Positions 47,118-64,000 of a stretch of 64,000 nt of DNA are shown piece by piece. Position numbers and translations under genes: made by a program. The DNA lies in NCBI RefSeq assembly GCF_024448715.1, contig NZ_JAMOHZ010000007.1:1-64000 (forward strand). Reading direction: 5' to 3'. Positions within the stretch are counted from its first letter, which is position 1, and every line of letters starts with the position of its first letter. A model generated the notes under the pieces. The model searched no databases. It was not told the DNA's origin and was given only the letters and a program-made list of their open reading frames with translations. The DNA is from Stutzerimonas stutzeri. Its GTDB lineage: Bacteria > Pseudomonadota > Gammaproteobacteria > Pseudomonadales > Pseudomonadaceae.

Positions 47118-48560
47118 TCAGGCTACCTGCCCCGCCGCACCGGCAATGCCTGGCTCTTCGTTCGCAGCCAAACGCACGGTCCGCCAAGTGTTATAGGCCA
47201 TCAAAAGCATGCCGAGAAAGAATGTTCCACCGCCGATTAGACGCACGATATAGCCTGGATGGCTGGCTTCAGCGCTTCGACGAATGAATAGGTCAAGGTG
47301 CCGTCATCGTTGATCGCGCGCCACATCAGGCCCTGGGTAATACCGTTGACCCACATCGAGGCGATATACAACACGGTACCTATGGTCGCCAGCCAGAAAT
47401 GCGCGTTGATCAGGCGCACGCTGTACATACGCTCGCGGTTCCACAGCGCCGGAACCATGTGATAGAGCGTTCCGATGGAAATCATGGCGACCCACCCCAA
47501 GGCACCGGCGTGTACATGGCCGATGGTCCAATCGGTGTAATGGGACTGGGCGTTGACGGTTTTGATCGCCATCATCGGGCCTTCGAAAGTGGACATGCCG
47601 TAGAAAGCCAGCGACACCACCAAAAAGCGCAGGATCGGATCGGTGCGCAATTTATGCCAGGCGCCCGACAGCGTCATCATGCCGTTGATCATCCCGCCCC
47701 AACTCGGTGCCAGCAGAATGATCGACATCACCATGCCCAGGTTCTGCGCCCATTCCGGCAGTGCGGTGTAATGCAGGTGGTGCGGGCCGGCCCAGATGTA
47801 CAGGCTGATGATTGCCCAGAAATGCACAATCGATAACCGATAGGAGTACCCCGGGCGCTCGGCCTGCTTGGGCACGAAGTAATACATCATCCCGAGGAAA
47901 CCTACGGAAAGAATGAAGCCCACCACGCTATGCCCATACCACCACTGGATCATCACGTCCGTTGCGCCGGAATAGAACGAATAGGACTTGAACAGACTCA
48001 CCGGAATGGCGGCGTGATTGATTACGTGCACCATCGCCGTGACAACGATAAAAGCGCCATAAAACCAGTTAGCGACATAGATGTGCTGGGTCCGTCGCCG
48101 CGCGATCGTTCCGAAAAACAGATACATGTAGACCACCCAACCAGCGTGAACCATAACGCGATGGACCATTCCATCTCGGCGTATTCCTTGGATGAGGTGA
48201 TGCCGAGGGGGTAACTGATCAGTATCGCCACGATCGCAACCTGCCAACCCCAGAAAACGAAGTTGGCCAGCCAATCCGAGATCAGCCGTACCCTGCAGGT
48301 GCGTTGCACGACGTAGAACGAGGTCGCGAACAGCGCACCTCCGCCAAACGCGAATATCACCAGATTGGTGTGAACCGGGCGGAGGCGTCCAAAGCTTGTC
48401 AGGGTAACCCGAGGTTGAGTTCCGGCCAGACCAGCTGGGCCGCGATAATGGTCCCCATCCCCATCCCAACGACACTCCAGAACAGCGTCATCAGGGTGAA
48501 ACGACGGATAACTGCGTAGTTGTATGTCGGAGCGGTGTCATCTAAAGAAGCATCGGCCAT
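47118..48560 (-). pseudogene. ccoN: orphan cbb3 cytochrome oxidase subunit I gene, frameshifted
   Basis: Begins at ATG 48560 ([20 protein letters not shown]) and would encode about 481 residues of CcoN ending at 47118. Three single-base losses interrupt it: near 48400 (after [11 protein letters not shown], where [13 protein letters not shown] should follow), near 48140 (before [10 protein letters not shown]), and near 47266 (after FVEALK, where [14 protein letters not shown] should follow). The haem and copper ligand regions ([41 protein letters not shown]) are otherwise intact. No ccoO or ccoP follows, so it was an orphan ccoN as known in several pseudomonads. Substitutions look few, so the decay is recent or the indels are sequencing errors. 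Confidence 0.85.
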
Positions 48561-48950
48561 AACGTTTCCAAAGCAAATTAAGTGGCAGCTCAACGCCGAG
48601 CCTCTATCCGACCCGACGGATCCGAAGCAAGAAAAGAGGATCGAGCGAAGTCACAGGAGTGTGCCCTGAAAATAGAATAAATATAACGAATACTAATGTA
48701 CTTTAAATGTATAAATATTCGTTTAATACGGTGGCTAGCGGATGCCTGTTCGAAGAAGGAACAGCCGCAGCCACTCCGTGCGGCAGCATCAGTAGCAGAT
48801 TTCCCTCAGAGCAACTGACGACCTCGCCAGGCCACAGCACTGAGTGGCAGTTGCAATCCAGCTTGCAGAGACCAGTCAGCAATACGCCGAAAAATCTTCA
48901 TGCAAATACGCGTTTCATCGCGTCAGCTTGACCGTTCTTCGGGCAAGCCA
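48561..48950. other. intergenic region upstream of ccoN and the imu operon
   Basis: 390 bases between divergent ccoN and imuA. An AT-rich block at 48670-48730 probably holds the ccoN promoter; I saw no Anr/Fnr site of the TTGAT-N4-ATCAA type. No gene recognised. Confidence 0.4.
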
Positions 48951-48991: not shown

Positions 48992-49609
48992 ATGACATCC
49001 GCGGTCGCTCTCACCCATCTACTTGATGCACGTCGCCTGTGGCGTGGCCAGACCAGAGTCGTATCGCCCAACACTCAGCCAACCGGGCATGCCGCGTTGG
49101 ACGCAGCGTTGCCCGGCGGCGGCTGGCCGGAATCGGCCCTAAGTGAAATTCTTTTCGCTACTACCGGTATCGGCGAGCTGCGCCTGCTCTGGCCGACTCT
49201 GGCACGGTTGACCATCGGCGGTGAGCGTGTGGTGCTGGTGGCTCCTCCTCATGTTCCCTACCCCCACGCCTGGCTGGCCGCCGGTGTGGACCTGCGTCAG
49301 TTGATAATCATCAAGGCGCAAGGACGTGACGCCTTGTGGGCTGCCGAGCAATGTCTGCGCTCGGGCAGTTGTGGCGCCGTGTTGTGCTGGCCGCAACAGG
49401 CCGATGATCGCGCCCTGCGCCGCCTACAGGTTGCTGCCGAGACAGGCCAGACCCTGGCCTTCGCCTACCGACCATTGCGCGAGGCGGTCAATCCCTCACC
49501 GGCGGCACTGCGCTTGGCTGTCGAGGTTCAGCCAGCGCAGCTGCGAGTACTCAAGTGTCGTGGCGGCCTGGCTCCCGCGCGACCGATCCCCGCCGCAGCG
49601 TGGCACTGA
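48992..49609 (+). CDS. imuA: ImuA, SOS translesion mutasome protein
   Basis: 205 residues, RecA/SulA-like: GHAALDAALPGGGWPESALS, LLWPTLARLTIGGERVVLVA, AEQCLRSGSCGAVLCWP. The first gene of the mutasome operon, it belongs to the proteobacterial ImuA group that works with ImuB and DnaE2 in damage-induced mutagenesis. imuB begins one base after its stop. Confidence 0.93.
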   Translation: MTSAVALTHLLDARRLWRGQTRVVSPNTQPTGHAALDAALPGGGWPESALSEILFATTGIGELRLLWPTLARLTIGGERVVLVAPPHVPYPHAWLAAGVDLRQLIIIKAQGRDALWAAEQCLRSGSCGAVLCWPQQADDRALRRLQVAAETGQTLAFAYRPLREAVNPSPAALRLAVEVQPAQLRVLKCRGGLAPARPIPAAAWH

Positions 49610-49610
49610 G

Positions 49611-51029
49611 ATGGACATGCTTTGGGCCTGCATTCTGCTGCCGCAACTGGCCATGGATGGTGTGCTGCGCAGCCGCGCCGATGCCGAGGCGCCGCTAGCA
49701 CTTTTGAGCGGCACGCCGCAGCGCCGCGTGCTGCAGGCGGTCAATCCAGCCGCGCGGGCTCTTGGTCTTAAGCCGGGGCAATCGCTAATCGCCGCCCAGG
49801 CGCTGACCCGCGACTTCGCTACTGCCGATTATGACCTCGCGGCAATCGAGCACTGGCAGAAATTTCTGGCCGCCTGGGGGTATGGCTTCAGTTCCCAAGT
49901 CAGCCTGCACTATCCGCGCTGCCTGCTGCTGGAAGTGCACTCCAGTCTCGGCCTATTCGGCCCTTGGCCTCGTTTGGAGGCACGTCTGCGCGAGGAGTTA
50001 GACGCGCTGGGCTTTCAACATCGTATTACCCTCGCGCCCAACCCAGCCGCCGCACGCGTCCTGGCCAACGTGCATGACGGCCTAGCCGTGATGGATACCG
50101 AGACGCTGCATCGCGTACTGAGCTCACTGCCGATAGAGCGTATCGGCCTGTCGCGTGAAGTGACGACCGCTTTTGTCCGCATGGGTCTTCGGACCTTAAA
50201 GCAGGTGCTCGCCCTGCCCCGCGATGGCCTGGCGCGGCGTTTTCCCGCAGAAGCGCTGAGGCATCTCGATACTCTGCTAGAACATCGTCCATTGGCGCTG
50301 GATTTCTACCGGCCACCAGACCGCTTCGATGCCCGAATCGAGCTGAACTTCGAGGTCGAGTCGCACCAGGCACTGCTGTTTCCGCTGCGCCGTCTGACCG
50401 CCGATTTCGCCGCCTACCTGGCCGGTCGCGACAGCGGTGTACAGCGTTTCACCTTGCATTTGGAGCACCGCAACCTGGCCGATAGCCAGGTGCCGGTCGG
50501 CCTGCTCAGCGCCGAGCGTGATCCAGCCATGCTGTTCGAACTGACTCGTGGCCGCCTGGAGCACTTGCAGCTGCCGGCGCCGGTACTGTCTGTGCGCCTG
50601 ATTGCGCGCGAGCTGCCGACCTTCGTCCCACAGCACCGTGAGCTGTTCGACGAGCGTCCACAGCAGTCGCTGTCCTGGGAGCAGCTACGGGAGCGCCTGC
50701 GCGCCCGGCTGGGCGATGATGCCGTGCAGGGGCTCGGCGCCCGGGCCGATCATCGCCCCGAATGTGCGTGGCAGCCGCAGCATGCCTCTCAGAGCGAGCC
50801 TCCACCAACCACTGGCCTGCGCCCCGGCTGGTTGCTGGCAGAGTCGAAGCCGCTGCACGAAGCATCGCTGCGCATTCTGGCCGGCCCTGAGCGCATCGAA
50901 TCTGGCTGGTGGGACGGCGGTGATGTTCGACGTGACTATTACCTGGTGGAAACTCGCGCAGGACAGCGTGGCTGGGCCTTCCGCCCCGTCACTGGAGGGC
51001 CGCTGCTGCTGCACGGCTGGTTCGCATGA
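49611..51029 (+). CDS. imuB: ImuB, inactive Y-family polymerase-like protein
   Basis: 472 residues from ATG 49611 ([20 protein letters not shown]). Y-family fold, but the acidic catalytic residues of DinB/UmuC are missing (ILLPQLAMD and [11 protein letters not shown] replace the metal-binding motifs), as expected for ImuB, which links the sliding clamp with DnaE2. The C-terminal part ([20 protein letters not shown]) is typical. Its stop overlaps the dnaE2 start by four bases (ATGA). Confidence 0.95.
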
Positions 51030-54000
51030 CAGCCGCCTATGTCGAACTGCATTGCCTGTCCAACTTCAGCTTCCAACGTGGCGCCTCCAGTGCCCGAGAA
51101 TTATTCGAGCGCGCCGTCCGGCTTGGCTACCGAGCCCTTGCCATCACGGATGAATGCACCTTATCTGGCATCGTACGGGCGTGGCAGGCCTCGAAAGATG
51201 TTGGCCTGCCGTTGATTATCGGCAGCGAAATACAGATCGAAGGTGGACCAAAGCTGGTTCTGCTGGTGGAAGACCTGACCGGTTATGAGAACTTGTGCCG
51301 GCTGATCACCCGAGCCCGCCGCCGCGCCGAGAAAGGTCGTTATCAGCTTCTCTCTGAAGATTTGAGCGAACCGCTGGATGGACTACTGACTATCTGGATT
51401 GCCCGCCAGCCCGATGCTGACGACGAGGGTCGCTGGCTACACGAACGATTTCCAAAGCGCCTCTGGCTGGGTATCGAGCTGCATCGTGGGCCAGACGATG
51501 CGCTGCGCCTGCGTCAGTGGCAGGCACTGGCCGCGCGTCTGAACATACCCGCAGTGGCCTGCGGCGACGTGCATATGCACGCCCGCGGTCGCCGCGCGCT
51601 GCAGGACTGTATGACTGCGATTCGCCATCACCTGCCGGTGGCGGAGGCCGGACGTTATCTGTTTTCTAGCGGGGAACGTCATCTACGCCGACGCGAGGAA
51701 CTGGCCGAACTGTATCCACAGGCCCTGCTCGACGAGACATTGCGCATCGCCGCGCGCTGTACCTTCAACCTCGGCCAGTTGCGCTATCAGTACCCCCATG
51801 AATTGGTGCCCGCCGGGCACGACGCCACTTCCTGGCTGCGCACGCTGGTCGAACAGGGCGCATGCTGGCGCTGGCCGAACGGCGTGCCGACCGAAGCTCA
51901 GAAGCGGATCGAGCACGAACTGAAATTGATCGTCGAGCTGGAATACGAGAGCTACTTCCTGACCGTCCACGACATCGTCCGCTGGGCCCGCGACGAGCAC
52001 ATTCTCTGCCAGGGACGCGGCTCGGCTGCCAATTCCACGGTGTGCTTCGCGCTAGGCATCACTGAACTCGACCCTATGCGCAAAGGAAGCCGGCTGCTGT
52101 TCGAACGCTTCCTCTCCCGCGAACGCAACGAGCCGCCGGACATCGATGTCGACTTCGAGCACGAGCGTCGCGAGGAGGTTATTCAGTACGTGTTTCGCCG
52201 CTATGGCCGTGATCGAGCCGCGCTGACTGCCGTGGCTAGTACTTATCACGCCACCGGTGCCTTACGTGACGTAGCCAAGGCGCTCAGCCTACCTCCGGAC
52301 CAAGTCAATGCACTGGCCGATTGTTGTGGACGCTGGAGCGACAGGATTCCCGACGACGAGCGATTGCGCGAAGCCGGTTTCGATCCTGACAGTCCGGTGT
52401 TACGCCGGGTATTGGTGTTGACTGGCGAATTGATCGGCTTTCCCCGTCACCTGTCCCAGCATCCCGGCGGCTTCGTCATCTCCGAGCATTCGCTGGAAAC
52501 CCTGGTGCCTGTGGAAAACGCCAGCATGGCCGAGCGCACCGTGATCCAGTGGGACAAGGACGATCTCGACGTTGTCGGTTTGCTCAAGGTCGATGTGCTC
52601 GCTCTCGGCATGCTCAGTGCGCTACGCCGCTGTTTCAACCTGATCGAACACTATCGCGGCACGCAATGGACCATCGCGACCCTGCCGCAGGATGACCGGC
52701 CCACCTATGAAATGATCAGCCGCGCCGACACTGTCGGCGTGTTCCAGATCGAATCGCGAGCACAGATGGCCATGTTGCCGCGCCTGCGCCCCAAGGAGTT
52801 CTACGATCTGGTGATCCAAGTTGCCATCGTGCGCCCGGGCCCGATCCAAGGCGACATGGTTCACCCCTATCTGCGCCGACGTAATCGTGAAGAGCCAGTC
52901 GACTATCCGTCAGATGAATTGATCCCCGTCTTCGAGCGCACTCTTGGTGTGCCGCTTTTTCAGGAACAGGTGATGGAGCTGGCGATCGTTGCCGCCGAGT
53001 ACACGCCCGGCGAAGCCGACGAACTGCGTCGATCCATGGCCGCCTGGAAGCGTCATGGTGGCCTGGAACCCCACCGCCACCGACTTACCGAACGCATGCT
53101 CGCCAAGGGATACGAGGCGGACTTCATCGCACGCATCTTCGAGCAGATCAAAGGGTTCGGCAGCTACGGTTTTCCCGAATCCCATGCCGCCAGCTTCGCC
53201 CTGCTCACCTACGCCAGTTGCTGGCTGAAATGCCACGAGCCGGCCGCCTTTGCCTGCGCCCTGATCAACAGCTGGCCGATGGGCTTTTACAACCCCGATC
53301 AGATTCTTCAGGACGCCCGCCGCCACGGCTTGGAGATTCGTCCGGTGGATGTCCGCCACAGCGCTTGGGACTGCAGCCTGGAGCCAAACGGCAAGGAACA
53401 GCCGGCGATCCGCCTGGGTATGCGTATGGTGCGCGGCTTTCGCGAAGAGGATGCGCGACGCATCGAGACGGCTCGTCAGGTTTGCTCATTCACTGACGTC
53501 AGTGATCTATGCATGCGCGCTGGATTGGACGCTCGTGCTCGTGAACGACTGGCCGACGCCGGCGCCTTGCGCGGTCTTGCCGGTCACCGCCATCGAGCGC
53601 GCTGGGCGGTGGCTGGAATCGAACCACAAATGCCGCTATTCGTTGGCCAGTTCGAGCAACAGGAAGCACCTGTAGCTCTGCCATTCCCCACGGCCGGTGA
53701 AGATCTACTGACCGACTACGCCACACTCGGCACAACGCTGGGCCCGCACCCGCTGGCGCTGCTACGCGATCAGCTGAGAACACGGCGCTGTCGCAGCTCG
53801 CGTGAACTGGCCGGTGTCGAGCACGGCCGCCCGGTCAGCGTTGTCGGTTTGGTCATTGGCCGCCAACGCCCACAAACCGCCAGCGGAGTGATTTTCGTCA
53901 CCCTCGAAGACGAATTCGGGATGATCAATGTGGTGGTCTGGCGCGACCTCGCCGAGCGTCAGCGACGGGTATTGATCCAGTCGCAGATGTTGCGAATCGA

Positions 54001-54109
54001 TGGCCACCTGGAGTCAGCCAGCGGCGTACGCCACGTCCTCGCCGGTCGCCTGAGCGACCTCACGCCACTGCTAATAGGGCTGGATATACGCAGTCGAGAT
54101 TTTCAGTGA
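51026..54109 (+). CDS. dnaE2: error-prone DNA polymerase DnaE2 (ImuC)
   Basis: 1027 residues, a C-family polymerase shorter than replicative DnaE. PHP domain at the start ([19 protein letters not shown]), palm with [20 protein letters not shown] carrying catalytic aspartates, fingers with [14 protein letters not shown] and [19 protein letters not shown], and a C-terminal OB domain ([20 protein letters not shown]). It does translesion synthesis with ImuA/B under LexA control. Its 3' end is directly followed by decayed mobile-element genes on the other strand. Confidence 0.97.
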
Positions 54110-54616
54110 TACGGAGGTGTAAGGATACGCCGTATTAAACCTGTTCAAGTTGTGCGTCGGCGCGCCGAGCGTTGAAAGACACAATCGAAAAAATGGTTCA
54201 GTTGACGAAAACAAAACGAGCACACGTGCGACTAGTGCGGGATCGATCCCTTTCTTCAGAGCAGCAAGTATCATCTTGTGCTCTTGAATCGGGGTTAATC
54301 GATTGATCTGACGGTTGTAGGTAAAGCCTTCGTCATCGGTGGATATCAGGCACAGCGCTTCTACCCCGCCCAGCTCCTTTAGCGCCTCCAATCGAAGAAG
54401 CCCATCGAGCAATACGTAGGAAGCTACGCTGTGTTCGGCAACCGGCTGCGGGTGCACTGCCAACGGCTCGACGACACCAAGCTCGCGGATTGAGCTAAGA
54501 ATGGACGCGTACTTCTTACTGCCATGGATACCCTTGTCTATTTGGCGTGTCGATAGGATGCGATCCAAAAGAATCGCAACAACCTGCTGTTCAAATGCTT
54601 GCTTTACCTGTCCCAT
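54071..54616 (-). pseudogene. truncated ParB/RepB-type partition gene
   Basis: From ATG 54616 the product matches the N-terminal ParB-like domain of a mobile-element partition protein (YASILSSIRELGVVEPLAVH, YVLLDGLLRLEALKELGGVE, STDDEGFTYNRQINRLTPIQ). Similarity stops at about 54220 (LKKGIDPALVARVL); the remaining codons to 54071 run through random sequence into the end of dnaE2. The C-terminal helix-turn-helix is gone. Its start overlaps the upstream repB remnant by one base, so the original pair was an operon. Confidence 0.75.
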
Positions 54617-54940
54617 CAAATTGCCTCGCCGTTGATACGGTCGGCTAGAGGCCGAGGCATATCCTGAATATCTTGGTTGCGTAGCAGCGCGGCGAAATAG
54701 TCATCGGCCAGAAGCTTTCTCACCGCCGTAACGATGATCAGCAAGCGCTGCTCGTTTATGTCAGCTTTTTTGATCATTACCTTTTGGCGTCGGACTTCTG
54801 CCTGATAAGTGTTGGAGCAATTTCTGGGGAGTGGTGGGTCGATCGGCATGAGCTCGTTGCCCGTACCGTTTGCCGAGTGCGTTGCGCCTGTCGATGAGCC
54901 GACGGACCTTGATCAGCTGCTCATCCAAGACAGCCAGCAC
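54616..54940 (-). pseudogene. 3' remnant of a second RepB/ParB partition gene
   Basis: The last codons (TYQAEVRRQKVMIKKADINE, then LLADDYFAALLRNQDIQDMP and PLADRINGEA) match the C-terminus of RepB-like partition proteins that precede the ParB gene in integrative elements. A further upstream piece in another frame (LDEQLIKVRRLIDRRNALGK) extends the similarity to about 54940, with a one-base shift near 54815. Everything upstream is lost and replaced by an unrelated fragment on the other strand. Confidence 0.65.
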
Positions 54941-55079
54941 GAAGGATGAGTTGCTCAAGATCACCGGTACCTTTATAGAGGGCAAAAAGGCATCGGTGAA
55001 AATCCACAAAAAGGACGGGGTCCTCCACGAAGAGCGGACCTATCCTCGTGCAGCGGACCCTCGCGAGACTAAAGGTTGA
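54937..55079 (+). pseudogene. C-terminal fragment of an unidentified protein
   Basis: The plus strand reads DELLKITGTFIEGKKASVKI, then HKKDGVLHEERTYPRAADPR and a stop at 55077-55079. Its composition (lysine-rich, good codon pattern) looks like a genuine protein end of about 46 residues. The N-terminal side breaks off exactly where the repB remnant of the opposite strand begins, so the two were joined by recombination. Family not recognised. Confidence 0.4.
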
Positions 55080-55174
55080 GCAAAAACGTTCCGCCAAAAG
55101 TATCCCGCACGGACGAAATCGAGCCACCCCAAGCACACCACCGCGCATGCTCAGTGAGCGCAGCACGAGCAAGC

Positions 55175-55690
55175 TTATTTACACTGCACTAGCCAGAGCC
55201 GATCGATCTGTGTCGTAAAGCTCTGGCTCATCATGTCCCGTCGCATGCTAAGTCTGGCGTTATGGGCACGCGGCCCGGCCTGAGGGTATTGCGTTCCCAC
55301 TTTGCGTTGATTGCGTCCAGCACGCCCATGACCCAAAGCGGCGGGTTGAAAAGATCGTCGGTGTATTCGCCGCGCTGCCTGAGGTCCATCAGCAGCAACT
55401 CGGCCTTGCTGAACTAAAGCTCTCTCGATACACATGGTCCAGCCAGCAATGGCTGCACGGGTAATGTATCTGGTGTCGTCCGTTGGATAACGCAGTTCAC
55501 AGACCACCCCCTTGGCAAACTTGGGCTTATTAAAGGATTGAACATGCCGGTGCGGATGCTCACACGCACGCGTTTGCACATGGATTGCTGCGCCCGTAGT
55601 TTCTCAGCAGCTCGGGCGGCATACGCTGCCACAGACTCCAATAACCTCCGCCTCGCTTGCGGTAACCGCTTCAACCTTCCCGTCTGATCC
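55175..55690 (-). pseudogene. umuC/rulB remnant (DNA polymerase V subunit)
   Basis: Pieces in all three minus frames rebuild the C-terminal half of a plasmid-type UmuC: AAYAARAAEKLRAQQSMCKR and VRVSIRTGMFN, then KPKFAKGVVCELRYPTDDTR and YITRAA, then AELLLMDLRQRGEYTDDLFN and VMGVLDAINAKWERNTLRPG, ending MRRDMMSQSFTTQIDRLW. At least three frameshifts and small deletions separate them, and no N-terminal catalytic half is found. rulB genes are known integration targets for mobile elements in Pseudomonas, which fits the surroundings. Confidence 0.8.
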
Positions 55691-55786
55691 GGCTCCGCTA
55701 GTCCTATCTCAACCCAACTTTTCCGATCGGTGTGCTGCGCGTTGCGCAGCGCTTTATGCCGACTCGCACCCAAAGAAAACGCTCAC

Positions 55787-56030
55787 ATGGCACATCTCAT
55801 CGAAACAATGGCCTACGCCGGCGCAGCACCTTGGCATGGCCTGGGTAATCGCTTATCTCAGAAACAACCCATCGAAGTCTGGCAGCGTGAAGCCGATATG
55901 GACTGGGACATCCAGGAAAGCCCGGTGCACTTTAAATCTGGTGCGGCTGGACATCTTGGCGCGATCCATTCATTCCCCCAACAAAAGGTGCTCTTCCGCT
56001 CCGATACTAAAGCGCCGCTTTCGGTAGTAA
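55787..56030 (+). pseudogene. N-terminal fragment of a DUF932 protein
   Basis: From ATG 55787 the first 80 or so residues (MAHLIETMAYAGAAPWHGLG, EVWQREADMDWDIQESPVHF, KVLFRSDTKAPLSVV) match DUF932/phage-plasmid TIGR03299 proteins of integrative elements. After about 56025 the sequence passes directly into a YqaJ gene in a different frame, so roughly three quarters of the DUF932 gene and the N-terminus of the next gene were deleted. Confidence 0.8.
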
Positions 56031-56958
56031 GGAATTACCCCGCGAACACTGGCTCCAAATCCGCAAGCAGGGCATCCGCAGTTCAGACGCCGCAGCCGCG
56101 GTAGGCCTGAATCCCTACAAATCACAGCTGGATCTGTGGATGGAAAAGACCGGAAGGAACTCCATGTTGCCGTAGGCCGATCCAGATGATGAAGAGTCGC
56201 CAATGTATTGGGGCAAAGTCCTGAAACCCATCGTGGCCTGGCATTACAGCAAGCGCACCAAGATAAGGTCCGTCGTATCAATGCCGTGCTGCAGCACCCC
56301 GATACTGATTGTCTTGGATGCTAGCCAATATAGATCGGGGGTAATCGGCGCTGAGGATGTGCAGATCCTCGAATGCAAAACAGCCGGCATAAACGGAGCA
56401 CGCCTCTGGAACGAAGGCGTGCCTAAGTATGTGCAATTGCAGGTAATGCACCAGCTAGCAGTGACCGGAAGCAGACTGCGAATGTTGCAGTGGTGCTCCG
56501 GTGGTCAGCACCTGAAGATCCATCGCATCGAGCGTGACGAATGCATGATTGCACGCTTGATCGAGCTGGAGCGCAAGTTCTGGCAGCACGTCGAATCTGA
56601 TACGCTGCCACCATCCGGCGGCACTGCATCTGCTGAAACCACCCTGCTGTGTTTGTTCCCAACGGATTCGGGAGCGACCGTGGAGTTCAGCGGTCATGCT
56701 GGATGTTAGCGGCTTACATCGAACTCAAGGCCCTGCGTCAGTCGATCTCCGACAAGGAAAATCGCGAAGCCCAGCTCAAGCAAATGCTGCAGCAAGCCAT
56801 GGGCGCTGTCGAGCGGAGTTCACTAATCGCTATATCAATTGGCGAAAGGCCAAGGACAGCGTCGGCTTTGATGTGACCCGATTACTAAGTGAAAGGCCGC
56901 ATCTGCAGGCCAATTCACGCTGACTAAGCCCGGCGCTCGACGCTTCCTGGTCAGCTAA
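56031..56958 (+). pseudogene. decayed YqaJ-type viral recombinase/exonuclease gene
   Basis: Starts inside the gene with REHWLQIRKQGIRSSDAAAA, continues SQLDLWMEKTGRNSMLP to a TAG at 56173-56175, and resumes with ADPDDEESPMYWGKVLKPIV. Two frame changes follow around 56265-56345. The catalytic core EDVQILECKTAGINGARLWN (YqaJ motif) is intact in frame. Further shifts near 56700 and 56810 lead to the C-terminus LTKPGARRFLVS ending at 56958. Clearly dead. Confidence 0.8.
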
Positions 56959-57043
56959 TTCTCTTTCCTTAAACCCTTCCCCTTGGTCAGCCCATGCAGT
57001 TCGCGCTGCGTGGCTGTGCCTTTTTCCATTCAAGAGAACCAAT

Positions 57044-57097: not shown

Positions 57098-57976
57098 CTA
57101 GCTTACCAGCTTAGAAAGAAGCGGATCGTTTCGAAAAAGCACGCACCAGCGAGCAACGGCCGACAACTCAGCAGTACGGTCAGTCATTTCTCGAATGCGG
57201 CTGCGCACTGCCAGAAGACTGGCTTTAGCAGCTGGATTATTACCACCACAGCGGGCTTTAGCCGCCTTGAAGTCTTCGATTAGACCATCCACTTTCTGCC
57301 AAACTTTTCTACGTTCCTCCGCCAGGGGCACATGATCATTCAGCTTCAGGCGACTAACTGTTTCTTGAACACGCTTTTGATCCCACTCGGATGAACCAGG
57401 CATAGGGATAACTTTTCCCTCTTCATCGAAGGCGATCAGATCCACATCGTCGTCGTCGATAGGATCGAGCAGGTAGCGAGTTTCCGATTCCTCACATTGA
57501 TCAGCGAAGGATGAACACAGCGATCCATCCCTGAGCGGAAACCAGCCACCTTTCTTGCGGTTACCTACATTGCCGCAAGCACGGAAGTTCATGTATTCAA
57601 AGGCCAGCCACCAGTAGCCATCGCGCACTGTGGTATCTAACGCCTTGGCCTCCTTTTTAGGCCGAAAGTGCTCAACGTCATAGTGCGAATACAGTTCACG
57701 AACTTCCGAAAACCAACACTTACCTGCCGACAATGCTAAAAGCCAATCTTTCAATGCCCCCCAGTGCCCACTATTCGCGTCTATTAGAGCATTTCGCTCT
57801 TCACGTTTACCTGCTGAATCCAGCGCTGCCAACTCAGCAACCAACTGTTTTGACTTGGCCAACCATGCATCCCACTTTTCCTGCGTCCAGGGCACCCACT
57901 GCTGGCTTGTAGCGGCTGGGTCCCAATTCGGGATACTTGCAGTCGGCAACTTTCCGTTAAGGTCGATCCAAATCAC
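57098..57976 (-). CDS. HNH endonuclease, PtuB-like
   Basis: 292 residues. The core resembles HNH nucleases of the Septu PtuB/TIGR02646 type: GKCWFSEVRELYSHYDVEHF followed by RPKKEA (His98, Asp100, His103), YWWLAFEYMNFRACGNVGNR and KKGGWFPL. A further conserved-looking acidic stretch (LLDPIDDDDVDLIAFDEEGK) follows. The start overlaps the ATPase stop by four bases (ATGA), so the two are made together. In Septu systems the ATPase senses infection and the HNH protein cuts nucleic acid; that role is inferred. It is the last gene of the operon; no terminator is seen beyond 57098. Confidence 0.8.
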   Translation of the reverse strand: MIWIDLNGKLPTASIPNWDPAATSQQWVPWTQEKWDAWLAKSKQLVAELAALDSAGKREERNALIDANSGHWGALKDWLLALSAGKCWFSEVRELYSHYDVEHFRPKKEAKALDTTVRDGYWWLAFEYMNFRACGNVGNRKKGGWFPLRDGSLCSSFADQCEESETRYLLDPIDDDDVDLIAFDEEGKVIPMPGSSEWDQKRVQETVSRLKLNDHVPLAEERRKVWQKVDGLIEDFKAAKARCGGNNPAAKASLLAVRSRIREMTDRTAELSAVARWCVLFRNDPLLSKLVS

Positions 57977-59772
57977 CGGGACGCCTCCTCGCGCAAAATC
58001 TCGTCAATGATCGAATCAGCAATCGCGTCTTGCTCAACCTGCTCTTCCGGTGTTAACACCGGTTTCCGGAAACGACGATGTTGCGCCATCTTGCGAACGA
58101 ATAACGCATAATCCGGATCACGGAAATCAGCAGTGGAAAAGCCCAAATCGGCTAGCTCGGCGGACAACCGGCTCAACTCAGCTTCTTCCGCCGGTGTACG
58201 TGGTGACTTCACAAATAGCTCATTACGGCGGAACAGGCGACGCTCGGTTTCAATGTCCAGCGTGGACGACAAACCAAATAGCTCGCTTTTTAGCAGCCCG
58301 GTCACGCCCATGCCTTGTGGGTGTTCATCAGGGATATCCACCACTGTGCGACTAGGATCGCGGCGCAGGATGTGCACCTGCTCACGTTTGAGGCTCCCCA
58401 CCATCATCGGGTCGTGTGTAGTGATGAGGATTTGCGATTCGCCCTGCACCAATGCTCCGTCGTCCGATGTCAGCACGCCTTCTATGTCGTCGAAATAGCG
58501 CAGCTTCCAGATCGGGTTCAAGTGGGTATCCGGCTCGTCGAGCAGGAACAGGCAGTGGTCTTCGCGGGTGATCCGCATCAGCCCCAGCACTGTGAGCATC
58601 TGCAGCTCGCCCTCGGAAAGCTGAGTAAAGCTCACCTTGCCGCCATGCTCATCACGTTTCTTGACGGTGATGCGCACTTCGTCGATCAGGTCGCCGATAT
58701 AGGCACCTTCGGCATAGCGGAAGAAACTGTCGGTGCCGCCCACCAACTCGCCAAGTTGTTTGAGTTTGTCCTGACTGGGTACGAACAGATAAAGCTGCTT
58801 CTGTTTTTCTGTACGACCGCGGAAGTCGATTTGCTTGGTGGCCTCTTGCTCGATCGGTGCCCAAGCCACTTGCCAGAGATTGTCGAGAAACTCGCTCACC
58901 ACATTGCCCCGCGCATACCAAAAACGCGGATCACCTTCGTTCAGTTCCTGCTCGTCGAACTTGCCACCCCGGCGCTTTTCACGCAGGCGGTGTGGCTCTT
59001 TCAAAACAAACAACGCGGACTCCAGCGACTCGATATGCAGGTTCTTCAACACCTTCTGAAAGACGGGGTCGTCAGACAGCAAACATGCCAACAAAACCAA
59101 CTGGCTGTGTCCACCCCGGCAGTAGAACAGGCGGCGCAGGCGATCGTCGCCAGCTTGCTTCATCCGCGACTCACGGCGGCGCTTGGCCGCTTCTACGGAG
59201 CGAATATCAGCTTCGGAGCCCGTAAAATTCTCCAGTAAGTTCTCCGAAAGCACCTCGTCAGTCGTGATTTCCTGGCGCTGGTTGAAGCGGCGCTGATGCT
59301 CCTGGAACAATACCTCGATGCGCTCATTACGCCCGGAGTAGTAGGCAAAGATATGTGTAGGCAGCAGGCGGGGGCCACGTCGATGGTCAGGTGATTCTTT
59401 GCCCGGTGGATCGTTCTTTATCAGGTACTCTTGACTAACACGGTCACCATCCACCCATACAAAAGGACGCTTCTGTTTGGCGGTGTCCGCTTCAATGCGT
59501 ACCGCGTGGCCGCGGATGCTGTACTCCAGCGTGTAATCAAAAGCTGCTTCGCGGTCCAAATCGACATCCCGGAAGATGGTGATCAGCGCTTCGATCAGGT
59601 TGGACTTACCAATGCCGTTCTGGCCAATTAGGGCATGACTGCGGATGGGCTTAGGTTCTGCATCCGCTGGAGCACCCGCTGCAGGCTGCAAGTGCGTGTC
59701 GAATGCAATCTCAAGGCCTCGCAAATTGCGAAAAGCCGGAATGCGGATTCGCTGTAGTTGCATATCAGGCAT
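57973..59772 (-). CDS. ABC-type/OLD-like ATPase, PtuA-like
   Basis: 599 residues. N-terminal half-ATPase with FRNLRGLEIAFD and Walker A GQNGIGKSN at 50-58, a central arm about 150-370 rich in basic residues, then the ABC signature QLSEGELQML at 384-393, Walker B CLFLLDEPDTHLNP at 407-420 and the switch histidine in ILITTHDPMMVGS. The C-terminal 130 residues are helical and charged. This SMC/RecF-like layout without a Toprim domain fits PtuA of Septu and related RM-associated ATPases. It starts inside the 3' end of hsdS (8-base overlap), or three codons later, and overlaps the HNH gene. Confidence 0.85.
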   Translation of the reverse strand: MPDMQLQRIRIPAFRNLRGLEIAFDTHLQPAAGAPADAEPKPIRSHALIGQNGIGKSNLIEALITIFRDVDLDREAAFDYTLEYSIRGHAVRIEADTAKQKRPFVWVDGDRVSQEYLIKNDPPGKESPDHRRGPRLLPTHIFAYYSGRNERIEVLFQEHQRRFNQRQEITTDEVLSENLLENFTGSEADIRSVEAAKRRRESRMKQAGDDRLRRLFYCRGGHSQLVLLACLLSDDPVFQKVLKNLHIESLESALFVLKEPHRLREKRRGGKFDEQELNEGDPRFWYARGNVVSEFLDNLWQVAWAPIEQEATKQIDFRGRTEKQKQLYLFVPSQDKLKQLGELVGGTDSFFRYAEGAYIGDLIDEVRITVKKRDEHGGKVSFTQLSEGELQMLTVLGLMRITREDHCLFLLDEPDTHLNPIWKLRYFDDIEGVLTSDDGALVQGESQILITTHDPMMVGSLKREQVHILRRDPSRTVVDIPDEHPQGMGVTGLLKSELFGLSSTLDIETERRLFRRNELFVKSPRTPAEEAELSRLSAELADLGFSTADFRDPDYALFVRKMAQHRRFRKPVLTPEEQVEQDAIADSIIDEILREEASR

Positions 59773-61752
59773 TCACCATGCTTGGCTGCTTTTCGTGCAC
59801 TTCGGCCACGGTGGGCTCCAAAATCCAGCCGTGCGCTACTTCGGTTTTCAGCTGCGCGTAAAAAACGTCGATCTCACCGCCAAAGCGCTGCCATAGGTCC
59901 TTGGCGCTCATCTGGCCGTTGTTTCGGGCCAGGATAGTGGCTAACGACGCTTGGTCTTTGACTGCAGGGGACACACCCAAGCGCAACGGGGCGATCAAAT
60001 CAGTTTGCGGGGCCTTCATGGGTTCCTCTTTATGTTCGTTAGCGATACCGGTAATACTTGAAACGGTAGCTCTAGCAAGTTTCTCCGCAAGATTTTTGCC
60101 GGTGAGCAGTTTTGATTCGAGGGAATCGCACAATGCCATCAACTCATTAACCCTGACGACGATTCGAGCTTGCTCCATCGTCGTAGGCAATGGCATTGCA
60201 TGTAACGCGAAGTAACCTGTTGGAAGTCGCTTTTGCCCTGCTGTACCAACCATGTTTATCTCACCATGAAAACGAAACAACGGTGATTTAAGAAACAAAT
60301 AAACAAAGCCAGGTAATACACCGGGGTGAATTGAACGGAAAACGTGAAACTCTGTAGACCCTGATCCTACACCATTATTTAACTCTCTAATGACAGCAGC
60401 TTTTCCATTTTCAAAACAAGGAGTAATTTTGGCTAAGATAACGTCTCCGTTGGAGATATGGGTGTAACCCTTGTTAATGTCGCCCCAAAGCCTTGGCTCT
60501 CCACGAAGTGGAGCATTGTGTCGCTCCGAAACGCCTCTCATAGGTAAAAAGGTAGCGGTCAAACCGGCTGCGGCGTTATTACGTGGATTGATTTCACCCA
60601 AATCAAGCAGACGACTCCATTGCCAGGTTGAAGGTAGGCCTATCTCCGGGGGAGACAATGGTTCAGACTCCAATTTTAGCGCGCGTTTATATTTTTTCTC
60701 CGCTATTAATTTCTGACGCGCACTCGAAATTTCGGCTAGAAGCCCTTTCGCATTACCTTCCGCAGAATCTTGAACCACCAAGCGACCCGTAACAGCCAAT
60801 TGGTAAATCACTTCGCGCAACCCAGCCACATCCTCCGGCACATGAAACAGCCGCCCGAAGTTCTCAGCCAAGCGCGCCCAGCTGATTTGCAGTTCGTGAG
60901 GACTGTTGGCGCTGGCGACGGCTTGCAACATCGATTCACGGAGGTCGTTTTGCAGCTTCCGTCGGGCCTGCTGCTGCGCTTCCAGCCAGTCGCACAAGGC
61001 CATCAGCTCATCAACTTTGGCTACGATGCGGGATTGTTCCGCAGACGGTGGCAGAGGTAACGCACGGGTCGCAAAGTACTCCGTTGGCAATCGTCTCTGA
61101 CCTGCGGTACCGGTCATATTCTTCTCGCCTTCAACAGCGAAATATGGCGACCTCAGAAACAAGTAGATGTACCCCGGCAGTATGCCAGCGTGGATCGGTC
61201 TGAATACGTGAAGCTCGGTCGTACCGGCACCGATGCTGTGCTGCAATCCTGTAATAACGGCGGCCTTACCGTTCTCAAAACATGGTGTGATCTTGGCAAT
61301 AACGACGTCGCCATTTCTGAAGTGTGGAAACCCCTTCTTTATACTTCCCCACTTCGCAGTCTCAGGCACCAGTGCCCCCATATGGGCCTCAGAGAAACCT
61401 CTCATCGGTATAAAGGAAGCAGCGGCCTCATCGGGCGCATCGTTTCTCGGGCTAATCTCGCCAATATCAAGAAGACGCGTCCAACACCATGAATCAGGAA
61501 GCTGTATAGATGATGGAATATCGAGACCTGCGCCCTCTAGCTTTGGCAGGCGCTTGTAGGCTTTCTCGCAAATCAACCGATCCCGTAATATCGTAATGTC
61601 AGCCAGTAGTTGGCGAGCGTCACCATCGATGCCGTGCTGAGGCGTCAATGCGCCTGTAATTGCCAATTGGTAAACCATTTCACGGAGCTGTTGGATGCCC
61701 CCGGCGCATTCACAATATGCCCAAACTCAGCCAAAAACTGCTCCGCGTCCAT
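59765..61752 (-). CDS. hsdS: type I restriction specificity subunit HsdS, N-terminus frameshifted
   Basis: The natural start is ATG 61752, overlapping the hsdM stop as TGATG, with MDAEQFLAEFGHIVNAPG. In a run of five G (plus-strand C at 61698-61702) one base is lacking, and the rest is read from another frame, open from ATG 61678 (MVYQLAITGALTPQHGIDGD) for 637 residues. Two target recognition domains, about 62-235 and 352-525 of that frame, are strikingly alike (both with DVVIAKITPCFENGKAAV or DVILAKITPCFENGKAAV and AGQ-RLPT). Each is followed by a conserved coil with VDELMALCDWLE or VNELMALCDSLE. Unless slippage or the internal ATG rescues it, the specificity subunit is altered or absent. 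Confidence 0.85.
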
Positions 61753-63530
61753 CAGGCTTCCTCACCGACGAAGTGATGGGCCAGTGCGGCCCCTAATTCG
61801 CTTTTGAGCTGGTTTTCGGTTTCTTCGATTTCGCCCAACAGCTTTTTGTATTTTTCCAACAGCAGGTCAGGATCGTGGGTTTCTTCTTGCGGCTTGTTTG
61901 GATTTGGCTCATCAAGATTGAAGATAGGCCAATAGATGCGATCACCTGTAACCTTCGCATCGCGGGCTTGCAGGCGCAGCGGTTCGGCTTTAGCACGCAA
62001 TCCTGCGATCTGATTATCGATCTTCTCGCGGTAGGCCGCATCAGTGCTGCCGATCAAGCTCCGGCGCAAATCGCTGGCTTCGTTTTCCAACTCGGCGGCC
62101 CGGTTATTCAGGTCGTCAGCGCGATGCCAGTACGGTTGCGCTGCAGCTTCGGCCTGCTCGCGCTTAGCTTTGAAATCAACCTTCCACGCAAATTCGTTTT
62201 CTACACGATCAGCAAAGTCATTGACTTCATCGCCCCACCACTCCTGTTCGACTTTGAACTCTTTAAACTGAATGGGCTTGGTTTTAGAATAGCTCTTATA
62301 GCCATTCGGATAAGGGTGCTCATAGAACCAAATCGTGTCGGTGTGGAAGTGCTCAGTGCCGTCATCCACCGTGGTGCCTTTGGTGAAGAACAGCAGGTTG
62401 GTTTTGATAGTGGTGTAGGGAGCAAACACCCCCTTAGGCAAACGGATGATGGTGTGCAGATTGCAGTCGCGCAAAAGAAGTTTTTTCAACTCATCCTTAA
62501 CACCAGTGCCAAACAAAAAACCATCGGGTAGCACCACGGCGGCACGGCCATTTTCCTTCAAAAGTTTTTTGATGATGAGGGCCATGAACATATCGGCTGT
62601 CTCGCGGGTACGCAGATCAGCCGGGTAGTCACTGCCGACGCCATCCTCTTCATAACCACCAAAGGGTGGGTTGGTAATGATGCAATCGACCTTGTCGTTA
62701 GCGCTCCACTCGTTCCAGCCGATTCCGAGGGTGTTCCGGTGCTCAATCTGACTCGGTACATCAATTCCGTGCAACAGCATATTGGTGGTGCACAGCAGAT
62801 GGGGCAGCTGCTTTTTTTCGATGCCGTGGATGAGCTCTTCAATGGCGCGTTTATCTTCAGCGCTGGATTTGATTGTGAGCTGATTGCGGAAGTGATCGAT
62901 GACGGCGGTCAAGAAGCCGCCTGTGCCGCAAGCTGGATCCATCACGGCTTCGCGCTTGTCCAAACGCGGGTTGACGCGATCTGCCATGAAGGAGGTGATT
63001 GCGCGCGGTGTGTAGAACTCGCCCGCATTGCCGGCACCGCGCAGATCATTCAGCAGTTGTTCATAGACGTCGCCCAGCTGGGCGCGCTGTGTGAAGTCGT
63101 CAAAGTGGATCGCTTCTTCCAACTTTTCGATCACAGCAAGCAGCTGAGGACCGGATTTCATGTAATTGTTGGCGTCTTCAAAAACCTGTTTGATGACTTT
63201 GTGCTGCGGACTTTTACTCGCATCGATTTGGTCTTTGAGGGCTGGGAACAATTCGTTATTGATGAATGCGATAAGCTCGCTGCCAGCGATTTGCGGTTTC
63301 TTCTTGCCTTCGGCATCGGGCAAATATTTTGCCCAATTACGCCAGCGAAAACGCTCTGGAATAGGAGACTGATATTGAGCGTTATCGTCTTCCCACTCGT
63401 CTTCGCGCTGGTCGAAGACCTTGAGAAAGAGCATCCAGGTAAGCTGTCCCAAGCGCTGGGCGTCACCGTCGACACCGTCATCCTTGCGCATGATGTCCTG
63501 GATGGACTTGATGGTACTGCTGAGGTTCAT
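61752..63530 (-). CDS. hsdM: type I restriction-modification DNA methyltransferase HsdM
   Basis: 592 residues. N-terminal HsdM helical domain (STIKSIQDIMRKDDGVDGDA, QLTWMLFLKVFD), then an N6-adenine methylase with the SAM motif DPACGTGGF at 198-206 and the catalytic NPPF at 287-290, plus NAGEFYTPRAI. The C-terminal part contains a long charged coiled coil (AAELENEASDLRRSLIGSTD) that contacts HsdS. Starts at ATG 63530 with AGAGAG upstream, 35 bases after hsdR; its stop overlaps the hsdS start. Confidence 0.95.
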   Translation of the reverse strand: MNLSSTIKSIQDIMRKDDGVDGDAQRLGQLTWMLFLKVFDQREDEWEDDNAQYQSPIPERFRWRNWAKYLPDAEGKKKPQIAGSELIAFINNELFPALKDQIDASKSPQHKVIKQVFEDANNYMKSGPQLLAVIEKLEEAIHFDDFTQRAQLGDVYEQLLNDLRGAGNAGEFYTPRAITSFMADRVNPRLDKREAVMDPACGTGGFLTAVIDHFRNQLTIKSSAEDKRAIEELIHGIEKKQLPHLLCTTNMLLHGIDVPSQIEHRNTLGIGWNEWSANDKVDCIITNPPFGGYEEDGVGSDYPADLRTRETADMFMALIIKKLLKENGRAAVVLPDGFLFGTGVKDELKKLLLRDCNLHTIIRLPKGVFAPYTTIKTNLLFFTKGTTVDDGTEHFHTDTIWFYEHPYPNGYKSYSKTKPIQFKEFKVEQEWWGDEVNDFADRVENEFAWKVDFKAKREQAEAAAQPYWHRADDLNNRAAELENEASDLRRSLIGSTDAAYREKIDNQIAGLRAKAEPLRLQARDAKVTGDRIYWPIFNLDEPNPNKPQEETHDPDLLLEKYKKLLGEIEETENQLKSELGAALAHHFVGEEA

Positions 63531-63565
63531 CGATTGACTCTCTTATCTTTCAGCTTGATGCGTGA

Positions 63566-64000
63566 TCAAGTCTGCTTCTGTTCGAAATTGTCGTAGAGCG
63601 CTTTTTCGAGCTCATGCACAGCCTGGGTGTATTGCTCGACGCCACCAAAAATGCCGCGCCGGATTTGCGTTTTGCTGCCGAACTGGTCGAAGGGCGGAAG
63701 CTCCAGCACCTTGGCGTCTTCGATATCATGCACACCATGATCGGCGAACTTGTCGAGCAGGGCTTCAAGCACCCCGCGGGCTTGTTCACCGTATTTTGCA
63801 AAAACGTTGCGCTTTTTCACGTTATTGACGCGCTCGCGGCGCGTGAGCGGCTTTTGGTCAAAGGCAACATGAGTAACTAGATCGAAGACATCCAGTTCAC
63901 TGCCGTTGGTTACAGTCTGCTGCAGGATTTCCAGCGGGATACCATGTTCGGCAAGCTCTTCCAGCACCGCTTGTTTGCGCTCCGCACTACTCCAACGTCG
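63566..64000 (-). CDS. hsdR: type I restriction endonuclease subunit R, C-terminal part (cut by the window edge)
   Basis: The last 144 or so codons of a frame that enters from the right edge without a start. Features such as DVFDLVTHVAFDQKPLTRRE, RVNNVKKRNVFAKYGEQARG and the end FGSKTQIRRGIFGGVEQYTQ are typical of the HsdR C-terminal domain (EcoEI/EcoKI type) that docks onto HsdM. The helicase and nuclease domains lie outside. First known gene of the leftward operon hsdR-hsdM-hsdS-ATPase-HNH. Confidence 0.9.
   Translation of the reverse strand, partial: RRWSSAERKQAVLEELAEHGIPLEILQQTVTNGSELDVFDLVTHVAFDQKPLTRRERVNNVKKRNVFAKYGEQARGVLEALLDKFADHGVHDIEDAKVLELPPFDQFGSKTQIRRGIFGGVEQYTQAVHELEKALYDNFEQKQT

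Follow-up and report, generated by a model that had tools for sequence, protein, structure and literature searches.

The hsd-ptuAB Locus

The stretch analyzed here is 64,000 nucleotides of Stutzerimonas stutzeri DNA (contig NZ_JAMOHZ010000007.1, positions 1 to 64,000), referred to below as the window. Its last part contains a type I restriction-modification (R-M) operon that continues into a gene pair resembling ptuA and ptuB of the Septu defense system. The five genes hsdR, hsdM, hsdS, ptuA, and ptuB run in a single direction on the minus strand, with hsdR standing first and the part from hsdM to ptuB occupying positions 57098-63530 (Table 1). As set out below, comparison with related loci suggests that the Septu-like pair may be functionally joined to the methyltransferase and specificity subunits of the R-M enzyme.

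An original prediction, made from the nucleotide sequence alone, had proposed this gene order and strand, together with Walker A, LSEGE, and LLDEPD motifs in an ABC-type ATPase and a VEHFRPK motif in an HNH protein. All of these were confirmed. The predicted overlaps were also right, at 8 bases between hsdS and ptuA (59765-59772), 4 bases between ptuA and ptuB (57973-57976), and 1 base between hsdM and hsdS, the last on the condition that the TGATGG at 61752 is the start of hsdS, as it is in the relatives examined. An hsdR gene is present at the head of the operon as predicted, but only its 3' end lies inside the window and the gene is split in two frames. All three genes of a type I R-M system (hsdR, hsdM, and hsdS) are thus found at the locus, with hsdR and the start of hsdS out of frame.

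Table 1. Genes and protein segments of the hsd-ptuAB locus in window coordinates
Feature	Position	Strand	Description
ptuB-like HNH protein gene	57098..57976	-	292 amino acids, GTG start; PADLOC PDLC00343 PtuB, 1.1e-106
ptuA-like ABC-type ATPase gene	57973..59772	-	599 amino acids; PADLOC PDLC00293 PtuA, 2.4e-206
hsdS long open frame	59765..61678	-	637 amino acids; PADLOC type I subunit
HsdS C-terminal domain, about residues 542-637	59765..60055	-	winged-helix-like by eye; no Pfam match
hsdM	61752..63530	-	592 amino acids; PADLOC MTase_I, PF02384, PF12161
HsdM insert, residues 451-545	61896..62180	-	coiled-coil-like by eye
hsdR 3' end	63566..64000	-	last 435 bases; gene continues to window-equivalent 65976

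Identity of PtuA and PtuB

The proposal that the ATPase-HNH pair is PtuA/PtuB-like was borne out by hidden Markov model searches, in which both proteins matched the corresponding PADLOC models over their full length (residues 4-597 in the case of the ATPase) with the scores given in Table 1. In PtuA, the Walker A, LSEGE, and LLDEPD motifs and H453 are conserved without exception among the 27 aligned sequences. The same is true of C87, E91, H103, K107, N130, and K142 of PtuB. A PtuA profile matched the entry labeled 'PtuA' in the Protein Data Bank (PDB 8ee4_A) at 6e-7, together with solved retron ATPases, and the match was best over the C-terminal ATPase half. A single PtuA sequence used in place of the profile gave no match in the PDB at 0.01. 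PtuB matched a solved retron PtuB in the PDB at 3e-5.

The Pfam matches of PtuA are to AAA_21, AAA_15, ABC_tran, and SMC_N only. PtuA matches at least 4087 protein clusters at E values up to 1e-20 (8000 scored). Among the 120 matching clusters listed, most of the names given are 'AAA family ATPase' or 'predicted ATPase'.

Conservation of the Gene Order

The genome_contigs collection, in which 84,980 species are each represented by a single genome, was scanned using PtuA alone as the query. The scan identified 60 further loci with PtuA proteins of 46-93% identity, which together with the window we call the near lineage. Judged by their titles, the hosts are Proteobacteria of several classes, Desulfobacterota-type bacteria, and Planctomycetes. 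Upstream of ptuA, all 59 testable loci have hsdS on the same strand; the contig of the remaining locus (L065) starts inside ptuA. Similarly, ptuB is downstream of ptuA in all 60 loci, although it is cut or broken in L041 and L049. The hsdS stop codon is no more than 20 bases away from the start of ptuA in 54 of 56 loci, window included, in a count for which both gene ends were placed automatically and five of the 61 loci (L022, L049, L057, L061, and L065) were dropped. This tight spacing argues that the adjacency of hsdS and ptuA is no chance arrangement. The five-gene order is therefore conserved far beyond the genome in which it was first noticed.

An hsdR gene is visible in 50 of the 61 near-lineage loci, the contigs of the other 11 stopping short of it. 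Of these 50 genes, 43 are full length and seven are not (L017, L027, L034, L042, L043, L051, and the window). An IS3 element interrupts the gene in the Klebsiella locus L017. In 41 loci the complete set of five genes is full length.

Additional genes are found within some loci. An extra open reading frame (ORF) lies between hsdS and ptuA in L049 and L061; in L061 (8362-9846) a gene for a Schlafen AlbA_2/HATPase_c_4 protein sits at this position. A family of 15 ORFs is located between hsdM and hsdS, and its member in L009 (7130-8248) is a DUF1016/YhcG PDDEXK protein.

A Distant Second Lineage and the Loss of hsdR

Twelve PtuAB loci (L003-L007, L174, L175, L178-L181, and L183) carried by plasmids, genomes, and viral contigs constitute a far lineage, in which PtuA is 31-38% identical where measured. 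L180 and L181 have identical ORF tables. In L183, on Vibrio anguillarum plasmid p15, the entire hsdR-M-S-ptuA-ptuB locus is decaying and its genes are fragmented. The ptuA-ptuB pair is preceded by hsdS in 11 of the 12 far loci. The gene orders observed, abbreviating each gene to its last letter, are M-S-A-B, S-A-B-M, R-S-A-B-M, and R-(Abi)-M-S-A-B, so that the constant part is S-A-B. A gene for a Fic family protein stands directly before hsdM in L007 (2555-3664) and in L123 (5600-6685).

No hsdR was found in six of 11 testable far loci, as judged by annotation and blastp with one HsdR (L003, L004, L005, and L007) or by profile (L174 and L175), procedures that a very divergent HsdR could escape; the flank of L178 is too short for this purpose. 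In the near lineage, an upstream stretch of about 5 kb in the viral contig L177 holds no hsdR. Escherichia coli PS1Thumoskin9 has intact hsdM, hsdS, ptuA, and ptuB genes and an hsdR reduced to an 85-residue remnant. The ptuA of this strain is found in 3 of 5426 E. coli genomes.

These observations bear on the earlier suggestion that DNA ends made by HsdR might trigger the ATPase. Such a trigger would resemble the response of RloC to double-strand breaks. It would be consistent with the presence of at least part of hsdR in the 50 near-lineage loci, window included, whose contig reaches it, and with a match between the Walker A region in the PtuA profile and Rad50 in the PDB (4e-5). However, because hsdR is missing or reduced in loci where ptuAB is intact, triggering by HsdR-made ends is unsupported, and we judge it very unlikely.

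Additional Elements in HsdS and HsdM

R-M loci without PtuAB were assembled for comparison. HsdM searches in 369 + 58 genomes gave 19 hits outside the PtuAB-positive genomes G000 and G165, and 17 of these were widened to 10-14 kb (L100-L116), G001 and G021 being left out. None of the 17 loci contains PtuA or PtuB.

The HsdS proteins of PtuAB systems have about 97 extra residues at the C terminus, and these are more conserved than the rest of HsdS. The additional domain is present in 53 of 55 near-lineage HsdS proteins longer than 380 amino acids. The other two are broken genes in which the next piece carries the domain. It is absent from all 17 PtuAB-less relatives. Near-lineage HsdS proteins have 123-199 residues after the last HsdS motif, compared with 34-52 in random HsdS proteins that have both landmark motifs, of which seven of 30 were usable; this regular-expression measure fails where the motif is missing, is matched once, or falls inside the tail (giving 39 residues for L005 and 15 for L125). 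No Pfam family matched the domain of the window HsdS. The HsdS tails of L040 and L043 are ∼60 residues longer and resemble two tandem copies of the domain.

Far-lineage HsdS proteins likewise end in extra residues. An hhalign comparison of the near and far domains gave a probability of 87% with a score of 40.8, using alignment rows whose selection is described with the proposed mechanism below. None of 40 column shuffles reached this score, the best being 21.0. We also considered whether the near domain is the same as the HsdS extensions associated with TIGR04435 ATPases, and rejected this identity (hhalign 0.7%). The match between far-lineage and TIGR04435 HsdS is confined to the first ∼45 columns, a region that we take for the ordinary C-terminal region of HsdS.

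HsdM also differs between the two groups of loci. The insert at residues 451-545 of the window protein is 95 or 140-141 residues long in PtuAB systems and 19 residues long in the relatives. All 52 near-lineage loci with HsdM have this insert, and all 17 PtuAB-less relatives lack it. Nevertheless, the insert is not exclusive to PtuAB systems, as an HsdM from an Azotobacter plasmid (39% identity) carries a matching stretch.

Co-variation of PtuA with Its Partners

Co-variation was assessed in 41 complete loci as the rho between protein distances with 299 permutations, all p values being at the 0.003 floor except that for the PtuA body with PtuB. Distances in the PtuA body, which runs to about residue 485, track those of HsdM (rho 0.82), HsdR (0.74), the HsdS tail (0.67), and whole HsdS (0.51). 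There is no clear co-variation of the PtuA body with PtuB (rho 0.19, p 0.077). By contrast, the ∼100 residues at the C terminus of PtuA follow PtuB with a rho of 0.81.

The PtuB proteins fall into two types, found in 32 and nine loci. The distance between types is clearly raised in the PtuA C terminus and in PtuB, but not clearly in the PtuA body, HsdM, or HsdR. The point is illustrated by comparing the window with the Pseudomonas tehranensis locus (L030), where HsdM is 97% and HsdS 93% identical and PtuB is only 31% identical. Scored in 50-residue steps, the PtuA proteins of these two loci are 82-100% identical across the first ∼450 positions but only 43-47% identical at the C-terminal end. 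By sequence, the PtuA C terminus and PtuB are swapped together as a cassette. PtuA thus looks like an adaptor, the body of which tracks HsdM and HsdR and would face the R-M enzyme, and the tail of which tracks PtuB and would face the nuclease.

An alternative is that PtuAB is an independent Septu system sharing the operon as a passenger, retained for shared expression and joint transfer. Other passengers do occur in these loci, among them the 15-ORF family and the Schlafen-AlbA_2 gene, and the swapping of PtuB types would also fit such an arrangement. Nevertheless, ptuAB stays behind hsdS through varied gene orders, the extra HsdS domain is a mark of systems linked to PtuAB, and the agreement of the PtuA body with HsdM is closer than its agreement with PtuB. 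We therefore regard a simple passenger as unlikely.

Proposed Mechanism

The original prediction had suggested that restriction and the second system may be linked. A functional linkage of this kind is favored by the HsdS domain and by the co-variation of PtuA with HsdM and HsdR, whereas the proposed HsdR-end trigger is not. We suggest that PtuA and PtuB could be a second effector arm of the type I R-M enzyme, docked on HsdM-HsdS through the HsdS domain, a proposal that we consider plausible if not quite probable. More tentatively, the system may be a methylation-gated Septu, in which a type I methyltransferase would have PtuAB in place of HsdR as its effector, recruited via the HsdS C-terminal domain. 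HsdR would then be optional, and hsdM-hsdS-ptuA-ptuB would constitute a minimal R-M system of its own kind with a Septu nuclease as effector.

Beyond the observed linkage of hsdS to ptuA-ptuB, the HsdS domain, the co-variation, and the loss of hsdR, we infer docking, gating, and nuclease activation steps as follows. The PtuA body would dock on HsdM2-HsdS via the HsdS C-terminal domain, and the PtuA C terminus would hold PtuB. The trigger would be an encounter of HsdM2-HsdS with unmethylated target sites on invading DNA, or capture of the complex by a phage DNA-mimic inhibitor. ATP-bound PtuA would then change state and activate the HNH nuclease PtuB. On the model of characterized PtuAB pairs, PtuB would cut tRNA or DNA and so stop phage production. 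Host-genome methylation would serve as the 'safe' signal, and HsdR would be a parallel arm that can be lost. Among characterized pairs, Septu EcB88 is reported to require its Walker and HNH residues and to cut tRNA-Tyr (PMC13096335). The PtuAB pair of retron-Eco7 is described as depleting tRNA-Tyr, and the same paper reports nicked DNA as the target of the Septu system in E. coli ATCC 25922 (PMC11555353).

PtuAB might alternatively be a guard resembling PrrC. The R-M complex would silence PtuAB, and a phage anti-restriction protein would release it, leading to tRNA cleavage and abortive infection. PrrC, which is encoded within a type I locus, is reported to become active when EcoPrrI is inhibited by T4 Stp (PMC12707154). 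AriA of the PARIS system is reported to sense Ocr (PMC12409363), and PtuA matches an AriA-labeled model at 1.5e-17 and, as a profile, AriA in the PDB at 7e-4. The action of both Septu EcB88 and retron-Eco7 PtuAB on tRNA-Tyr is also in keeping with a guard, and the HsdS domain would suit a silencing contact equally well. However, hsdR-less loci hold no restriction to be guarded, unless it is HsdM-HsdS alone that is read. Because hsdR is dispensable across lineages, we favor an effector read out by HsdM2-HsdS and rank the guard second, as a somewhat unlikely explanation.

Several observations weigh against the effector proposal. The division of PtuA is not clean, as its C terminus also tracks HsdM (0.48) and HsdR (0.50), and co-variation can arise by co-inheritance alone. 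Near-lineage HsdM proteins form one clade in the HsdM tree (support 0.993), and so the 53-versus-0 contrast in the HsdS domain represents one or a few events and not some seventy. The Azotobacter plasmid with the HsdM insert has no PtuAB annotated in the 17.6 kb shown. Two HsdS proteins beside weaker PtuA matches (L123 and L176) are without such a C-terminal tail, and L174 has ptuA-ptuB and hsdM with no detectable hsdS. When near and far HsdS tails were first compared, hhalign returned only 15%, and the rows giving 87% were re-chosen after this weak result had been seen. In that choice the near set was thinned to 17 rows and L182 was added, and the far set lost L006 and five TIGR04435-type rows and gained L175, L178, L179, and L180. 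Finally, although hsdR is broken more often (7 of 50) than ptuA (2 of 60), the difference does not reach significance (Fisher 0.076).

The fixed HsdM-HsdS partner with its dedicated HsdS domain is a concrete candidate for the sensor of PtuA. If the effector proposal is true, R-M and Septu are joined into one machine, the persistence of some type I loci without hsdR is explained, and the 'restriction-associated ATPase' families share a common logic.

Assembly and Genomic Setting

In the window strain hsdR changes frame midway to give two frames of 387 and 431 amino acids. The hsdS frame that opens at 61752 slips within the first 20-odd codons, and this conserved start is out of frame with the 637-residue long frame (61678-59765) in the present assembly. 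Both genes are intact in relatives. A ccoN-like cytochrome oxidase subunit gene in the same window (47237-48593) is also fragmented, with COX1 128-416 in one frame and 50-133 in another. On this basis assembly indels are the likely, though not proven, cause of the frame breaks in hsdR and hsdS.

No full-length PtuA match was found in any of 24 congeners, three of which gave weak partial matches. The locus begins beside a tRNA-Pro gene (window-equivalent 66145-66221). Both features suggest that the hsd-ptuAB locus was probably acquired horizontally. The tRNA-Pro 3' end did not recur in the 74 kb searched. Adjoining the defense operon on the opposite strand are ORFs (48992-54109) that we take to be an imuA-imuB-dnaE2-like SOS mutagenesis cassette. 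ParB-like and DUF932-like frames, recognized by eye, lie between dnaE2 and ptuB (54071-57000) and are perhaps the remains of a mobile element; the two tested gave no Pfam match.

Comparison with Known Systems

The closest relationship is to Septu (PADLOC PtuA1/PtuB1), with which the window pair shares the ATPase-HNH composition, full-length model matches, and the catalytic motifs. Unlike Septu, the pair is not encoded as a stand-alone unit, hsdS being upstream in every testable near-lineage locus. It also differs in having a PtuA body that varies with HsdM and HsdR and a partner HsdS with an extra domain. PtuA and PtuB of retrons Ec78 and Eco7 belong to the same ATPase and HNH superfamilies. 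However, the window proteins are far below the cut-offs of the retron families NF041760 and NF041761 (24.8 of 500 and 53.9 of 150 bits), and they are hsd-linked.

TIGR04435, the restriction system-associated AAA family ATPase, is a cousin family that likewise lies directly behind hsdS. The window ATPase nevertheless scores 128 bits where 300 are required, and its partner is a full-length PtuB match. The ATPases behind hsdS in L118, L119, L124, and L125 are TIGR04435 proteins (4 of 4 scanned) and are more distant than the far lineage. The ATPases of L118, L119, and L124-L126 are followed by a gene for a 350-377-residue protein with a weak match to PDC-M01B and, except in L119, a weak match to PtuB. 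The terms 'PDC' and 'HEC' are names for embedded-defense candidates.

Other precedents have second defenses within type I loci. PrrC in EcoPrrI is, like PtuA, an ABC-ATPase-type effector inside such a locus (PMC12707154, PMC2610378). However, PrrC is a single protein with anticodon nuclease activity, whereas the nuclease in the window is a separate HNH protein of the PtuB type. DarTG2 in the type I R-M island of enteropathogenic E. coli is also a second defense within an hsd operon, but it is described as a toxin-antitoxin pair between hsdS and hsdR, in 12 of 54 R-M-linked rptR loci (PMC12255303). The MADS system has a MAD2 methyltransferase, a MAD3 ATPase, and mad5, to which HsdM, PtuA, and HsdS of the window show weak matches. 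These are far below the cut-offs (89.8 of 720 bits for MAD2 and 27.7 of 420 bits for MAD3).

The literature searches found no description of an hsdRMS-ptuAB composite, although the Payne 2024 preprint on embedded defenses, cited in PMC12255303, might list it. Within the literature searched, the composite is therefore undescribed, as first proposed, but that claim must be tempered as the TIGR04435 family has already been named and embedded defenses in type I loci are known. With PrrC, DarTG2, and TIGR04435 as precedents, the new parts are the HsdS domain and the adaptor pattern of PtuA.

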